A stretch of DNA of 35,082 nt from Erysipelotrichia bacterium (lineage in GTDB: Bacteria; Bacillota_I; Bacilli_A; RFN20; CAG-826): contig JAAYJX010000038.1 of NCBI GenBank assembly GCA_012522695.1, forward strand, positions 1-35,082, written 5' to 3'. The position numbers were made by a program, and so were the translations under genes. Positions 902 to 10,079 of this stretch are shown here, one piece after another. How positions within the stretch are numbered: the stretch's first letter is position 1; every line of letters starts with the position of its first letter. A model generated the notes under the pieces. It worked only from the letters and a program-made list of their open reading frames with translations. It was not told the DNA's origin and did no database searches.

Positions 902-2455
902 TTATTTTAAGATGACTGAGCTATAAGCTTCAAGTGTTAATAAATCTTGATTTAAAGATGCAGGTTTTTGCATCGTTTTAATTTCATCAATAATTTCTAA
1001 ATTTGACATATTAATATTTGCCTCAATTTGATGATCGCTAAAATTATGAATTAAATAAATAATATCTTCGTCTTTTTCGATTTTAAACATCGCTAAATGT
1101 ATATTATCGTGTAGTTGATAATGGTAATATAAACCGTCATGAAAAATAGGATATTTATTTCTTAAATTAATAACTTTTTTATAATGATTTAAAAGTGAAT
1201 TTGGTACGTTTAATAAATCAAAAGCACCTTTACTTACTTGTAAAGAAAAATCATAAGTTGTCCCAGGTGGATTATTCGTTTGTTCGCTTGTATCTTTTTC
1301 TAACCAAATCATTGGTAAGCGACGATTAGCGTCAGTATTTGCTCCACCCCTACTACCTTTTAAACCAATTTCTTCACCATAATACATAAAAGGATATCCA
1401 GGTGTTAATAAATAAGCACTCGCAGCAATCTTAGCTTTTTCATCTTTTAGATATCCACCTGATCGATCCATATCATGGTTTGATAAAATAAGTGCGTTTT
1501 TTGATGTCGTCGATCTTTCTTTTAAGGCGACTTCACTAGCAACTAAAGCTCTAGCAAAGTTATTGCCGGTTTGCTGAATAACACTAAGGCCAACACTTTT
1601 TGGATTTACTTCTGCCATTGGGAAATTAAAAAAGTGCATCCCTGAACTAGCATAATTATATAAAACATTCGTCATTTCTTCCCAAGCTTCGCCGATAATA
1701 AAAGCATCTTCTTTTTGGCTTTTAATGTAATCATTTAAATAAGTTAAAAAAGCAATGTTTTTTGAACTTTTGCCACTAAAGAAGCTTGTCACCGCGTCAA
1801 GGCGAAAACCTTTAACACCGCGATTAAGCCAAAAGTTAATAATGTTTTCTATTTCATTTATGACATATTCATTATCTAAGTTTAAATCAGGCATCGATGT
1901 ATCAAATTGACCTTCATAATAACTTTGAGCAACATTTGAATAACGATATCCTTTTTGCTGTGTATCTGACCAATTGTAATAAAAGCGTTTGCTTGTTGGA
2001 TCTAAAACATTATCACGCTTATCTTTTTCAGCGTCTTTAAACCACTCGTGATTTGAGCTTGAATGATTAATAACTAAATCAAGAATAATATCGATATGTC
2101 TTTTATTTGCTTCGCTAATTAAATAATCAAAGTCATCTAAGGTACCGAATTCTTTTTCAATTGCTAAATAATCTTTAACATCATACTTATGGTAAGTATC
2201 GCTTGGATGAATTGGCGTTAACCATAAACCTTTAATACCTAAGTCTTCAAGATAATCAAGTTTTGAAGCAATCCCTCTTAAATCACCTACTCCATCATGA
2301 TTAGAATCACAAAAAGAGCCAACAAAGATTTCATAAAAAACTGAGCCGTTAACGTTAGTTACGTCAGGATCTAATGGATAATTATTCGTTTGATTTGGAT
2401 GGCAAGATAAAGAAAGAAAAGTAATAAATAAAAAACTAAAAAAACGTTTTTTCAT
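902..2455 (-). CDS. GH13 alpha-amylase family lipoprotein
   Basis: 517 aa; signal peptide with lipobox LSLSC; GH13 motifs DLVINHSS, GFRLDAVTSFF, IIGEAWEE, LSNHDMDR. Confidence 0.93.
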   Translation of the reverse strand: MKKRFFSFLFITFLSLSCHPNQTNNYPLDPDVTNVNGSVFYEIFVGSFCDSNHDGVGDLRGIASKLDYLEDLGIKGLWLTPIHPSDTYHKYDVKDYLAIEKEFGTLDDFDYLISEANKRHIDIILDLVINHSSSNHEWFKDAEKDKRDNVLDPTSKRFYYNWSDTQQKGYRYSNVAQSYYEGQFDTSMPDLNLDNEYVINEIENIINFWLNRGVKGFRLDAVTSFFSGKSSKNIAFLTYLNDYIKSQKEDAFIIGEAWEEMTNVLYNYASSGMHFFNFPMAEVNPKSVGLSVIQQTGNNFARALVASEVALKERSTTSKNALILSNHDMDRSGGYLKDEKAKIAASAYLLTPGYPFMYYGEEIGLKGSRGGANTDANRRLPMIWLEKDTSEQTNNPPGTTYDFSLQVSKGAFDLLNVPNSLLNHYKKVINLRNKYPIFHDGLYYHYQLHDNIHLAMFKIEKDEDIIYLIHNFSDHQIEANINMSNLEIIDEIKTMQKPASLNQDLLTLEAYSSVILK

Positions 2456-3351
2456 TAGCCCTTAACCGCACCGCCAGTTACACCGCTAACATAAAACTTT
2501 TGCATAATAATAAATAAAATAGAAATAGGTACAGCAACTAAAACACTACCAGCAGCAAATTGTTTCCAATAAAGAGCCATATCTTGCTGTTGGGCTATCA
2601 TTTTATATAAACCAACTGAAACAGTATAATGTTGCATCGCATCACCTAAAATATAACTAGATAAAATATAATCACCCCACGGGCCCATAAAGGCTGTAAG
2701 AATTGTATAAACAATAATTGGTTTAGCAAGGGGCATAATAATCATATAGAAAATTTGAAAACGTGAGGCTCCATCAATCATCGCTGCCTCATCAATTGAA
2801 CGAGAAATTGTATCAAAAAAACCTTTGGATATAAAATATCCCATTCCTGCCCCACCAACATAACAAAGAATTAAACCAAAAAGACTTTGCTTAAGACCAA
2901 CTAGGGCCAAGATTTGATATAAAATAATCATACTTAAAAAGCCAGGAAACATTCCTAAAACAAGAATGAATTTCATCATCGGTTGACGAGCTTTAAAGCG
3001 TAAACGCGAAAAGGCATAAGACGTACATAAAACTAAAATTGTTGAAACAAGCGAAGTAACTAAACTAACGACGAGGGTATTAAAAAACCAAACAGCATAA
3101 TAATCACTATAAGAAATAGAGCCAGTTGGAGCATTACCACTAAATAAATGATTAAAGCCAACTGTAGAAAAAAGAGCTTTATAATTATCAAAAGAAAAAG
3201 TTAGAGGGACGAGACGATAAATAGAGTTATACCCTGGCTCACCAGAAAATGATTGTAAGATAAGCCAAACAATTGGTAGTAACCAAATAATTGACATAAC
3301 AATTAAAATTAAATAAATAAAAAGATTGGCAATAATTTTTCTTGCTCTCAT
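2455..3351 (-). CDS. malG: Maltodextrin-type ABC transporter permease (MalG-like)
   Basis: 298 aa, multiple TM segments, EAA motif IDEAAMIDGASRFQIFYMIIMPLAKP, next to MalF/MalE homologs. Confidence 0.9.
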   Translation of the reverse strand: MRARKIIANLFIYLILIVMSIIWLLPIVWLILQSFSGEPGYNSIYRLVPLTFSFDNYKALFSTVGFNHLFSGNAPTGSISYSDYYAVWFFNTLVVSLVTSLVSTILVLCTSYAFSRLRFKARQPMMKFILVLGMFPGFLSMIILYQILALVGLKQSLFGLILCYVGGAGMGYFISKGFFDTISRSIDEAAMIDGASRFQIFYMIIMPLAKPIIVYTILTAFMGPWGDYILSSYILGDAMQHYTVSVGLYKMIAQQQDMALYWKQFAAGSVLVAVPISILFIIMQKFYVSGVTGGAVKG

Positions 3352-5579
3352 TATTGGAAGTCCTCCTCTTTTTGCACCGAACCAATTCGGGCGTACATAA
3401 TTAGTGATAAAAAGGCCGAAATCGCAAAGATAAAGATACCAAGCGTTGAGGCGACGTTATATTGGTTACCACTGCCAGTTGTAATTTTATATAACCAAGT
3501 AATTAATAAGTCTGTGTCATTTGCGTTATATAAGTATAACTTGTTAGGTTGTGAGCCGGTTAGGAAGAAAATAACGTTAAAGTTATTAATATTACCAATG
3601 AATTGGGTAATTAGATATGGCCCTGTTACAAAAAGCATATAAGGTAAAGTAATTTTAATAAATTGGGTAAATGGGCCTGCTCCATCAATCCGTGCTGATT
3701 CATATAAATCTTCAGGAATATTCATTAAAATGCCACTTGTAATAAGCATCGTATAAGGAACACCAACCCAACAGTTAACGATAATGACAGTAAATTTAGC
3801 GATATTTCCATCACTTAAAAACTTAATTGGTTTAGCTAAATTGAACGTCGTCATCAAAAATTCATTAAGCGGTCCATAATCACCAAGAATTTTTGACATC
3901 GCTAGCAGGCTAACAAATTGAGGAACAGCAATTGTAACAACAAAAATGGTCCGCCAGAGTTTTTTAAGTTTAATACCTTTACGATTAATTAATAAAGCTA
4001 AAATCATTCCTAAAACATAATTTAAGAAAGTTGCAAAAAAGGCCCAAATAAGTGTCCAACTTAATAATGTCCAAATCGTCCTTGACATCATTTCATTTGC
4101 GCCTTTACCAGCAAAGAGGGTTATAAAGTTATCAAAGCCAACCCATTTAAATAAATTTAAACCTGAGTTGGCGCCATTAAAGTTTGTAAAAGCAACAAAA
4201 ATTGTAAAGGCTAAAGGAATAATAACTAAGATTGTTGCAAAAGTAACTGGTAAAAATAAAACCGTTGTTGCAAAGTTTTCATTAAATAACGCCTGCGTTT
4301 GTTTTTTAAACGTTGATGTTTGTCCATAATATTTATTTGCATAACGTTCATTAAATGCCTTTGAATTTAAAACAAGACGATCATATTTTTTTTGATGTGC
4401 TTCTTTTGTAATTTTTTTATTATGTAGACCTAAATCAAAAATTGTTTCAGCAATATGTCCTTCAACATTTAAAGCACCAACGATACGCGTAATAGCTTCT
4501 TTTTTCTTAATCCGCTTTTTTTCATCAATTGAACTTAAATTATTACGTTTTGAAAGTTCATCTCGAGCATAAATCGCATCTAAGACAAGTTCGCTATTTT
4601 CATAGGCAAAAAGAAGATGATTAATCGCCTTATTGACATCATTAAAAACATTATAGCGATCATAAATTTGATGAAACTTATTTAAATTAAATTTTGCTTC
4701 ATCTAAAACTTCATGAGGTGCGTTTACTAATTTCTTTAAAGACAAATAATTAATAAAGCGCGCTGATAAGGTCTCATAACCATTTTCTAATAAAACTTTG
4801 TAACGTTTTCTTTTTGATAAAAAGCGTATGCGCTTAGCTTTTTCATCTCCTTTATTTGAAATCAAATAAATATTTTCATTAATCTTTTCAATAAAATTAA
4901 TTTGATCTTCGTATGCATCAACATATTTTGGCCCATGAACAATTTTGTCATTATGCGAGGCCGTGTTTAAATTACGAATATATAAGTAGATAAAGACAAA
5001 AATAAGAATAACGGTAAGTAGGCCATAAAGAAGACATTTAATCGAACTATCACCTTCGACTCCAGCTGTATATAATCCTGTTTCTTCATCAACGCCTGGA
5101 GGTGTAAAAGGAATTAAACCTGGTCCCGTTAATTTCCATAAATTGACCCAACCAAAAAAGACCATAAAAAGAATAAAACCAACTTGAACAAGCATATAAA
5201 AAATGCCATTAACAATTTGACCGCTTTTGATACTTGAAAAGCCCATAATAAAATAAGATGTTTTACCATTACGGTCAACTTCATAAAAATGACGTATATG
5301 TTTTTTGAAAAAAGAAACAAAGCGTTTAATTAAAAAGACAATACCTTTATACAAGCTAACAAAGATGTTAGCGAAAGCTTTTAAAATATCAAGTAAAAAA
5401 GCACCAAGCCAAATTAATGATTTTAAAAGAGTATTTAAAAGGCCTAGTAAAAATGTTTTAAATTTTCCAACCGGTTGAACATCAACATTAGCTAATGCCG
5501 AAACGTTTGCAAAATTTAAGTGGCCCCCTTCTTCTTTAAGAAGAAGTTCTTTCTCATTAATTTTTGTTTTCTTTTTCAT
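3351..5579 (-). CDS. malF: Maltodextrin-type ABC transporter permease (MalF-like) with long N-terminal extension
   Basis: 742 aa; C-terminal ~315 aa is a standard MalF-type permease (EDLYESARIDGAGPFTQFIKITLP); N-terminal ~425 aa has extra hydrophobic segments and a charged region. Confidence 0.88.
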   Translation of the reverse strand: MKKKTKINEKELLLKEEGGHLNFANVSALANVDVQPVGKFKTFLLGLLNTLLKSLIWLGAFLLDILKAFANIFVSLYKGIVFLIKRFVSFFKKHIRHFYEVDRNGKTSYFIMGFSSIKSGQIVNGIFYMLVQVGFILFMVFFGWVNLWKLTGPGLIPFTPPGVDEETGLYTAGVEGDSSIKCLLYGLLTVILIFVFIYLYIRNLNTASHNDKIVHGPKYVDAYEDQINFIEKINENIYLISNKGDEKAKRIRFLSKRKRYKVLLENGYETLSARFINYLSLKKLVNAPHEVLDEAKFNLNKFHQIYDRYNVFNDVNKAINHLLFAYENSELVLDAIYARDELSKRNNLSSIDEKKRIKKKEAITRIVGALNVEGHIAETIFDLGLHNKKITKEAHQKKYDRLVLNSKAFNERYANKYYGQTSTFKKQTQALFNENFATTVLFLPVTFATILVIIPLAFTIFVAFTNFNGANSGLNLFKWVGFDNFITLFAGKGANEMMSRTIWTLLSWTLIWAFFATFLNYVLGMILALLINRKGIKLKKLWRTIFVVTIAVPQFVSLLAMSKILGDYGPLNEFLMTTFNLAKPIKFLSDGNIAKFTVIIVNCWVGVPYTMLITSGILMNIPEDLYESARIDGAGPFTQFIKITLPYMLFVTGPYLITQFIGNINNFNVIFFLTGSQPNKLYLYNANDTDLLITWLYKITTGSGNQYNVASTLGIFIFAISAFLSLIMYARIGSVQKEEDFQ

Positions 5580-5641: not shown

Positions 5642-6862
5642 CTATTGATTCATTTGACTAACAGCAGCAGCAAGAGCACTAGCTGCGCCATCATATGGAT
5701 CCCAATCTTGATCCATAATCATTTTTCCAATAGCGCCAACTGGATCCCAATAACCGCCAGTAACGGCTGTTGCTTGGTTAACACCAAATTCGTTTTGAGC
5801 ATTAACTGCAGCAAGCATAACACTAGCGTTAACAGCTGGTAATTCACTAGCAACTTTATTAGCTGGGCCGATTCCACGTTGTTCAAAACGATGTTTTTGT
5901 GAATCGTAGCTAGTTGAAAATTTAGCAAAAGCAAGAGCTTCGTTTGGATATTTTGTATTAGCTTTAACAGAAACTAATTTGGCTGAACGGAAAGAACCAA
6001 GTTGCTTACCATCAAGAGTTGGTAATTTGGCTGCGCCTAAATCATCTCCAAGAGCCTCTAAGAGTTCTTCATATTGCCAAGTTCCACCAACACCAGCAAC
6101 AACGGTTGGAGTTGCGGCAGTCATACCAGCAACGACGTTGTCGTTGGCAGTCCAAGCAGAGCCATTCGCCCCGCCTTTTAATGTGTAAGCTTTTTCAACG
6201 ATGTCGACGACACCTGCAGAATCGTAGTTACAATTTTGTATATCTGGATCGCCAGCTTGGGCAGCTGGGGTAACACTAATTGTGCCACCTCCACCAAGAT
6301 ATAGGCTCGTACCTTGCCAGGCATTTGGTATATCATATTCAACGTTTTTCCCTAAGGATTTAGCTTTGGCAAGTAAACCTTCAAGCGTTGCAATATCAGT
6401 TGCATCAACTAAGGCTTTGTTATACCAAAGGAAATAAGTGTTATCTGATGTTTGTGGGAAACCATAAAGTTTACCATCTCTAGTTGCGGCATCAACTGTC
6501 CAATCAATACTAGCAGCAATGGCGTCGGTTTTAATTTGACCTTTAAGTTCTAAAAGATTATTCGTTTTGACAAGCTCAGTTAAGTTATCATCAACGAGTG
6601 CAAATACGTCAGCAGCAGCTTCAGCGTCTTTCGTAAGTTCGGTTCTAACGTCACCTTCTTTAACGTGTTTTAGCTCAATTGAAACACCTTTGCCTTCTTC
6701 GGTTTTATTAAATTCCGAAATAATATGTTCCATAACAGCCTTATCTTCGGTCGGGGCCCAAACTTTGAGCTTAACACCAGAATCAGCTGGATCACATGCT
6801 ACAAGTGGAACAGCTAGCATGGCGACAGCAAGAAATAAAAAATTCCTTTTCTTGAAAAACAT
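5642..6862 (-). CDS. malE: Extracellular maltodextrin-binding lipoprotein (MalE-like)
   Basis: 406 aa; lipobox LVAC; family 1 solute-binding protein features (LKVWAPTEDKAVMEHIISEFNK, KLYGFPQTSDNTYFLWYNK); AGGAGG upstream. Confidence 0.9.
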   Translation of the reverse strand: MFFKKRNFLFLAVAMLAVPLVACDPADSGVKLKVWAPTEDKAVMEHIISEFNKTEEGKGVSIELKHVKEGDVRTELTKDAEAAADVFALVDDNLTELVKTNNLLELKGQIKTDAIAASIDWTVDAATRDGKLYGFPQTSDNTYFLWYNKALVDATDIATLEGLLAKAKSLGKNVEYDIPNAWQGTSLYLGGGGTISVTPAAQAGDPDIQNCNYDSAGVVDIVEKAYTLKGGANGSAWTANDNVVAGMTAATPTVVAGVGGTWQYEELLEALGDDLGAAKLPTLDGKQLGSFRSAKLVSVKANTKYPNEALAFAKFSTSYDSQKHRFEQRGIGPANKVASELPAVNASVMLAAVNAQNEFGVNQATAVTGGYWDPVGAIGKMIMDQDWDPYDGAASALAAAVSQMNQ

Positions 6863-7018: not shown

Positions 7019-8311
7019 TTAATAAATCCGCTTCGTTGAATTTTTGTCAAAAAGGTGAACTTTTGTTAAATCAAAAACTAGATTTAGTTTATCGTGAATA
7101 TTAATTGCGCGTTCACTAGGAATTTTGGCAACAATATTATTTGTGCCAAATAAAGCGTGAACATAATATTCATGACCAAGAAGTTCAGCAACACTAACTT
7201 GTATTTGGTAAACATCGCTTTGATGTTTTTCTTTATTTTCAGGCGTTGCTTCAAAAATATCTTCAGGACGAATACCGAACACGATATCCATTTTCTTACC
7301 TAAAGAAGCAAGGTGCTCTTCAAGTTTTTCAATCTTTTCTTTAAGAGCGGGATCTTCTTTAGTTTTTAAAGCTAATTCATCATTAAGTTCATCGATTTGT
7401 CGTCTAAGAAGTTTACCTTCATGCGCGACAAACTCATCTAGAGCAGTTAATTGTTTATCGTCTAATTTAACTTTCTTACCATTAGACAAAGTTAAAACAC
7501 CTTTATTTAATGTTGCATCAATAAAGTTCATAGCAGGTGAGCCAATAAAACTAGCAACAAATAAATTGGCAGGATTATTATAAATTTCAAGAGGCGAACC
7601 AACTTGTTGAATATAACCAGCTTTCATAACAACAATACGTGTTGCCATCGTCATTGCTTCGGTTTGATCATGTGTAACATAAATTGTTGTCGCACCAAGT
7701 TCTTCATGAAGTTTAATAATTTCACTTCTCATTTGCACACGAAGCTTCGCATCTAAGTTAGAAAGAGGTTCGTCCATTAAGAAAACTTTTGCATTACGAA
7801 CAATTGCTCGTCCTAACGCGACACGTTGTCTTTGGCCACCAGAGAGAGCTTTTGGTTTTCTTTGTAATAATTCTTCGATTTCTAAAATGCGGGCTGCTTC
7901 TTTAACGCGACGATCAATTTCAGCTTGTGGGAAGCGTCTAATTTTTAAACCAAACGCCATATTGTCATAAACAGACATGTGCGGGTAAAGCGCATAACTT
8001 TGGAAAACCATCGCAATATCACGGTCTTTAGGAGCGCGATCATTTGAATATTCGCCATCAATCCAAAGCTCACCAGCCGTAATTTCTTCTAAGCCGGCAA
8101 TCATTCTTAAAGTAGTTGATTTACCACAACCTGATGGGCCAACAAAAACGACAAATTCTTTTTTAGCAATATCTAAATTAAAATCAAAAACAGCTTGAAC
8201 CTTATTGTCATAAACCTTATCAATTCCCCGTAAGGAAACATAACTTAAATCTTCGGGTTTACTAACAATAACTTCACCTGTAGTTACTTCTTTTTTTGTT
8301 TCTTTTTTCAT
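7019..8311 (-). CDS. malK: Sugar ABC transporter ATP-binding protein (MalK/MsmX-like)
   Basis: 430 aa; Walker [10 protein letters not shown], signature [16 protein letters not shown], Walker [18 protein letters not shown]-terminal regulatory/TOBE region FGIRPEDI. Confidence 0.93.
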
Positions 8312-8387: not shown

Positions 8388-10079
8388 TTATTTTATTTCA
8401 AATAAATAACATTCAAAAGGTCTTAAAATTAATTCACCTTTTTCTTCTTTTTGGTCTTGATAATTATGGAGTAATAGACGTTCCATTTTATGTCTTAATT
8501 TATATTTCACTTCGTAATCACGAAAGTTTGCTAGACATAAAATCTTAACATCCCCGTCATGTTTAAAGTTCAATAAATCAGGATTTAATTCATCGATTAA
8601 AGTAAGTTTTCCAAGCAAAACACTTTGTTGAATTTTTTCATTTTTTCGTAATTTAATCGCTCTTTTGTAGTAATTTAATATCGAATCTGGGTTATTTTCA
8701 TTGTTTTTGACATTTACTTCTTTGTAGTTACTATTAATTTTAGTTAAAGGCGGGACGTTAGAAAAACCACCATGAATTGTATCGTCCCACTGCATTGGTG
8801 TCCGAGCGTTAACGCGTGATGTTCTTCTTAAAAAACGCAGTAGAGTTTTCTCATCATATCGACCTTTATTTTCTTTTATATAGTTCTTGTTATTAACGTC
8901 ATCAAAGTCACTTAATTTTTCATAAGTTACATTTGACATGCCAATTTCATCACCATAATGAATAAAAGGCGTTCCATATAAAAAGAGTAAAACAGTAATA
9001 AGCATCTTGGCTGATTCATTACGATATTTAATACTTCCATATTGCGATAAGACTCGTGGATGATCGTGATTAGACCAATATAGAGGTAGCCAGGCTTTTT
9101 GATAAGTAGCGTTATACCAACGCATTAAATTTTTCTTTAAACTAAGAACATCAGTAACGATTTCTTCATCGCTTTTTTCAACACTACCATAAGCACCGTT
9201 TTGCCAAACTGTATCAAAATTAAAGACTATATTAATCGAACCATTTTTATAATTCGTTAGGCGTAGTGATTGTTTAGGACTTACTTGCCCTCCGACTTCT
9301 CCGATAGTTACAATCTCATAATGATTAAAGACCTCTTTTTTAAATTCATCCATATAATCAAAAAGTTCTTTACGGTTAGAAAACTTTGTTGTATCTAAAA
9401 CTAAACCGTTTTGATCAACTTCATATGTTGAATCAGAAAATGTTAAATCTTTAGCTAAATGTGCAAGGGCGTCTAAACGAAATCCATCAACACCTTTATT
9501 AAGATAAAATCTTGCTATCTCATAATACTTTTGTCTTAAAGAAGGATTGGCCCAATTAACATCTGGCATCTTTTTTGAAAAAATATGTAAATAATATTGT
9601 TCACTCAATTCATCATAAGTCCATGCTGAAGTCGAAAAAAATCCTTTCCAATTATTCGGAGGCACTAGTTTGTTATTTACTTTTTTAGGAGGCTGAAAGA
9701 AGTAATAATCACGTTCAAGTGAGTTTTTATCTTTTTGAGCTTTTTTAAACCATTCATGTTCATCACTTGTATGATTTAATACGAAATCAACAATAACTCT
9801 AATATTGCGTGCGTGAGCTTCTTTAATAAGCAAATCAAAATCTTCGTTTGTTCCAAATAGAGGATCGATTTCATAATAATTAGAAACATCATAACCATTA
9901 TCATCCATTGGTGAAGCAAAAAACGGACAAATCCATAGTAAGTCAACACCTAGTTCTTTTAAGTAATCAAGCTTAGAGATAATACCTTTCAAGTCGCCTA
10001 CTCCATCATCATTTGTATCTTTAAAAGACCGCGGATAAATAATATAACCAACTGCTTTTTGCCACCATTTTAAATTCAT
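8388..10079 (-). CDS. Cytoplasmic GH13 alpha-glucosidase (oligo-1,6-glucosidase/maltase type)
   Basis: 563 aa; KWWQKAVGYIIYPRSFKDTNDDGVGDLKGI, DFVLNHTSDEHEWF, GFRLDALAHL, TIGEVGG, WSNHDHPR; no signal peptide. Confidence 0.93.
   Translation of the reverse strand: MNLKWWQKAVGYIIYPRSFKDTNDDGVGDLKGIISKLDYLKELGVDLLWICPFFASPMDDNGYDVSNYYEIDPLFGTNEDFDLLIKEAHARNIRVIVDFVLNHTSDEHEWFKKAQKDKNSLERDYYFFQPPKKVNNKLVPPNNWKGFFSTSAWTYDELSEQYYLHIFSKKMPDVNWANPSLRQKYYEIARFYLNKGVDGFRLDALAHLAKDLTFSDSTYEVDQNGLVLDTTKFSNRKELFDYMDEFKKEVFNHYEIVTIGEVGGQVSPKQSLRLTNYKNGSINIVFNFDTVWQNGAYGSVEKSDEEIVTDVLSLKKNLMRWYNATYQKAWLPLYWSNHDHPRVLSQYGSIKYRNESAKMLITVLLFLYGTPFIHYGDEIGMSNVTYEKLSDFDDVNNKNYIKENKGRYDEKTLLRFLRRTSRVNARTPMQWDDTIHGGFSNVPPLTKINSNYKEVNVKNNENNPDSILNYYKRAIKLRKNEKIQQSVLLGKLTLIDELNPDLLNFKHDGDVKILCLANFRDYEVKYKLRHKMERLLLHNYQDQKEEKGELILRPFECYLFEIK

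Follow-up and report, generated by a model that had tools for sequence, protein, structure and literature searches.

The window, a stretch of 35,082 nucleotides from an Erysipelotrichia bacterium, contains an operon-like run of genes on the minus strand in the order malK-malE-malF-malG, flanked by two GH13 genes (NCBIfam assignments). Genes for the partners MalG, MalK and MalE are all found in the same operon as malF, and the GH13 neighbours, the one line of evidence on this point, suggest maltose or maltodextrin as the substrate. The genes and the parts of malF are:

902..2455, minus strand: GH13 amylolytic enzyme with a lipoprotein-type signal, 517 aa (NCBIfam)
2455..3351, minus strand: malG, partner permease, 298 aa (NF008231, 2.8e-48)
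3351..5579, minus strand: malF, transmembrane subunit of a maltodextrin-type ABC importer, 742 aa (open reading frame, profile and PDB matches)
3354..4319, minus strand: normal MalF core, TM3-TM8, malF residues 421-742 (Pfam, NCBIfam, PDB, Foldseek)
4320..4943, minus strand: inserted all-helical domain in the TM2-TM3 loop, residues 213-420, predicted cytoplasmic (relatives, AlphaFold2, charge, dN/dS)
4644..4664, minus strand: YDRYNVF, residues 306-312, the most conserved motif of the insert (insert alignment)
4944..5291, minus strand: family-typical two-TM module, residues 97-212, with TM1 at ~122-150 and TM2 at ~179-204 (relatives, AlphaFold2)
5280..5465, minus strand: amphipathic lead helix, residues 39-100 (AlphaFold2 helix; hydrophobic moment, periodicity)
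5642..6862, minus strand: malE-type substrate-binding lipoprotein, 406 aa (NF053763, 1.9e-21)
7019..8311, minus strand: malK/ugpC-type ATPase, 430 aa (NF008653, 7.8e-145)
8388..10079, minus strand: GH13 enzyme without a signal peptide, alpha-glucosidase-like, 563 aa (NCBIfam)

As judged from sequence, spacing and Pfam, the OB/TOBE region of the window MalK contains, at residues ~287-335, an insert of ~44 aa that is rich in lysine and glutamate and coiled-coil-like. A second malEFG-type set is present in the same genome (L002, G000:C174), and its 585-aa MalF seems to hold the two-TM region twice.

The malF frame comprises 742 open codons from an ATG, and coordinates 4304-5579 correspond to its residues 1-425. 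A first-pass annotation had described the last ~315 residues as a normal MalF-type permease. This is borne out by the match of residues ~430-742 to the MalF profile NF008232 (1.4e-45) and to chain F of PDB 2r6g (5.4e-40); at 156 bits the profile match is under the curated equivalog cut-off of 392 bits, as it is in all 120 genomes of the class that were searched. The EAA-type coupling loop (DLYESARIDGAG region) is present, and its residues E627, D632 and G633 are invariant in an alignment of 63 sequences (A1). The structures retrieved by Foldseek with the full chain were MalF and further permeases of type I importers, and the alignments were as long as the core. The transport core is unchanged in this insert-bearing MalF.

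Everything ahead of the core had been annotated as an extension of ~425 residues. Residues 213-420 are indeed extra, but residues 1-212 are shared with short relatives. The two-TM module, with the motif G(K)xSYxxMG...GQxxxG and AlphaFold2 pLDDT values of mostly 88-98, occurs in essentially all full-length relatives scored for it, short and long, among them MalFs of 450-550 aa from Lachnospiraceae, Oscillospiraceae and Bacilli; it is weaker in MdxF-like proteins of other Bacilli. Since short relatives have the module too, roughly half of what had been taken for an extension is the normal N-terminus of this Firmicutes type of MalF. The hydrophobic segments quoted in the annotation are all present, but the first of them (residues 39-100) is an amphipathic helix with no clear membrane span. 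Its 100-degree periodicity is strong (0 of 2000 shuffles were as strong), and the helix probably lies along the inner face of the membrane. Many short relatives have a lead of about 57-70 residues. The insert-less MalF of another genome of the window's genus (L088 of G001) has a 273-residue N-terminal lead with extra predicted membrane spans.

The TM2-TM3 insert of the window MalF is 208 residues long. Measured as the segment between the profile of the two-TM module (residues 97-212) and that of the core (residues 421-742) in 136 proteins, the length of this loop is bimodal, with 6-30 aa in 76 MalFs, 193-973 aa in 54 and none in between; the set, drawn from public genome contigs and from genomes related to the window's, is redundant, as some loci come from the same genome. 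With the window insert as the sole query, phmmer matched long relatives with E values from 1.6e-15 to 1e-6. The insert of L237, 973 aa in length and excluded from the insert profile, still matched that profile at 4.5e-8. From these sequence matches, the inserts of the long forms are homologous to one another. Each of the 29 inserts aligned has the asparagine N310, which lies in a Y-D-K/R-Y-N motif. BLAST self-comparison of ten longer inserts revealed no tandem repeats.

For the three least-saturated pairs (dS <0.4), dN/dS of the insert was 0.10, 0.25 and 0.16 versus 0.09, 0.10 and 0.05 for the core, which shows that the insert is constrained, though less than the core. It evolves faster than the core: between the window MalF and L086 the inserts are 24% identical and the cores 65%.

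AlphaFold2 predicts the insert on its own as a confident all-helical domain (pLDDT 88.6, pTM 0.74). In the prediction of the full MalF chain, with a mean pLDDT of 87.6, the same helices appear and values in the insert are mostly 85-97 except around residues 231-250; all of these predictions are of single chains. The first-pass annotation had noted a charged, probably helical region of ~220 residues, and prediction, homology and purifying selection together identify it as a real, folded and conserved domain. The charged region contains 38 K/R and 28 D/E. The TM1-TM2 loop has five acidic and no basic residues and the TM2-TM3 insert is basic, so that by charge the former is predicted to lie outside and the latter inside the cell.

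Searches of Pfam, PDB sequences, and PDB and viral structures with Foldseek did not identify the extension as a known widespread domain. Pfam contained no family for the window insert at an E value of 0.1, and other inserts gave single weak, unrelated matches; Pfam and PDB-sequence searches with malF residues 1-425 gave no matches. Foldseek with the insert gave nothing at E <= 0.001, the best E values being 1.0 (PDB) and 0.59 (viral library). Gyrase A recurred among the Foldseek matches at E 1.8-9 and was dismissed as noise. A search of the open-access literature revealed no published description of such a MalF extension or of a cytoplasmic insertion in an importer of this kind.

MalF of Escherichia coli has a periplasmic P2 loop of ~180 residues between TM3 and TM4. 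The E. coli protein (PDB 2r6g and related structures) shares with the window MalF the core TM3-TM8, MalG, MalK and a MalE-type operon, and MalF structures were the best Foldseek matches. However, its extra mass is the periplasmic P2 domain, whereas the window MalF has only ~30 residues between TM3 and TM4, lacks a large periplasmic P2 domain and carries its additional domain between TM2 and TM3, predicted inside. The suggestion that size was gained differently in the two proteins is therefore upheld. Short MalF/MdxF-like permeases of Firmicutes (L155, L089, L025) share the two-TM module and operon type and are up to ~60% identical in the core, but their TM2-TM3 loop is only 6-30 aa and the inserted domain is absent. 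Long-insert MalFs of the window's own order (L079, L086, L098, L237 and others) have a homologous insert at the same site, although mostly a larger one (341-973 aa); the two shortest inserts are those of the window and L086.

Other enlarged MalFs of Bacilli, of 700-880 aa, have a TM1-TM2 insertion, a binding-protein fusion or an N-terminal coiled coil instead. In several Bacilli families a substrate-binding protein and a MalF-type permease seem to form one chain of 765-774 aa (L167-L171). MalF-type permeases of 805-882 aa (L172-L176, L178) have an insertion of 300+ aa between TM1 and TM2, presumably extracytoplasmic, and L177 has a charged coiled-coil N-terminus of ~220 aa ahead of the usual two-TM module.

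Of 296 genomes across the class that were searched with an insert profile, 12 gave matches: the window's genome and 11 further members of its order. The insert domain was not found outside MalF, either in the examined loci or in the 296-genome searches. In the core tree a single change explains the long forms (SH-aLRT 74; 63/22 in a smaller set); with this modest branch support one origin is favoured, not proven. Long forms are scattered within the order: several genera of the family to which the window's genome belongs have one, as do members of two or more further families. G001, the one further genome sampled from the window's genus, lacks the insert and has a loop of 30 aa, and in the core tree the window protein is closest to L086, from a genome of another family, with 64% identity in the core. 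Taken together, these relationships hint at gene exchange or differential loss.

MalK of at least 480 aa is encoded in 21 of 26 short-MalF operons and in none of seven long-MalF operons (Fisher p = 0.0002), a count in which several enlarged-MalK lengths are minima, as the gene runs off the stretch, and which omits several long-insert operons without a nearby MalK. The seven long-insert operons with an in-operon MalK encode one of 353-409 aa. We regard this apparent trade-off between MalF and MalK as a lead only, because the tree offers one independent contrast for it and shared ancestry by itself may account for the pattern. Neither elaboration is needed, since L242 and L243 combine a short MalF with a MalK of standard size. 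The in-operon MalKs of L213-L230 and L244-L246 have C-terminal extensions, giving 622-1007 aa, or insertions of ~120 aa in the regulatory domain, and most of these extra parts have no Pfam family. Homology between the MalK extensions and the MalF insert was not detectable, and the MalF insert showed no positive relation in length to the ~44-aa MalK insert. That the order builds a cytosolic control element either on MalF (the TM2-TM3 insert) or on MalK (the C-terminal or regulatory-domain extension), the two being functionally equivalent without any sequence relationship, is a speculation to which we give rather little credence.

The explanation that we favour, and hold to be slightly more likely than not, is that the operon encodes a maltodextrin ABC importer of the ordinary type I, with a folded all-alpha domain of ~208 residues inserted into the cytoplasmic TM2-TM3 loop of MalF. 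The insert would have arisen within one order of uncultured Bacilli, probably once, and later varied between 193 and 973 residues. It may sit beside the MalK dimer, where such a module would have a structural or regulatory role and set the coupling of the ATPase or the stability of the complex, and in related operons extra parts of MalK may take over its role. Taken by itself, contact with MalK or regulation by the insert is a tentative inference, rather less likely than not. The regulation of transport proposed in the first-pass annotation is possible.

A start of translation near residue 425, with a spurious frame upstream, would leave a core that is a normal ~315-aa permease by itself. We give this practically no weight, since the only in-frame start codons within residues 151-480 are two TTG (239 and 279), the upstream module is kept in all relatives and the region is under purifying selection. 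The first-pass annotation had also proposed docking of the amylolytic lipoproteins, and a GH13 lipoprotein gene does come after malG in the operon. This is highly improbable for the insert, which is predicted by charge to be cytoplasmic, on the opposite side from where the GH13 lipoprotein is expected; such a lipoprotein also occurs together with a short MalF.

A cytosolic maltodextrin-processing enzyme, such as the GH13 protein encoded at 8388-10079, would be another candidate partner, as the insert is predicted to be cytosolic and the gene for this signal-less enzyme adjoins malK in the window; the insert would then be a docking platform channelling sugar to catabolism. However, the signal-less GH13 gene is also present in operons with a short MalF (L017, L020, L021, L030) and is absent from that place in the long-insert operons inspected. 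The insert thus does not track the enzyme, and we consider docking of this kind unlikely. Since operons with long-insert and short MalFs share one gene order, the insert is no marker of a different pathway. Slightly less unlikely, in our opinion, is a tolerated, fast-drifting spacer without specific function, which would persist because only an exact in-frame deletion could remove it. Its weaker constraint than the core, highly variable length and low identity among families agree with this, and the rapid evolution of the insert seen between the window and L086 also fits a loosely functional spacer. Against it stand the purifying selection, the invariant N310, the YDKYN-like motif and the confident fold, together with a minimum of 193 aa and the absence of intermediates.

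Among type I ABC importers MalFGK2 serves as the model, and in E. coli its regulation acts mainly via MalK. The transporter described here is known and is not a new system; what is new is a conserved, folded insert in MalF that matches no family searched. The insertion of this domain into a familiar transporter subunit is real, constrained and specific to one lineage, and the natural series of MalFs with and without it permits direct comparison by deletion or swap. A cytosolic domain of MalF would be an unexpected site for control or assembly, and the insert looks like a home-grown addition to a textbook transporter in some uncultured Bacilli.
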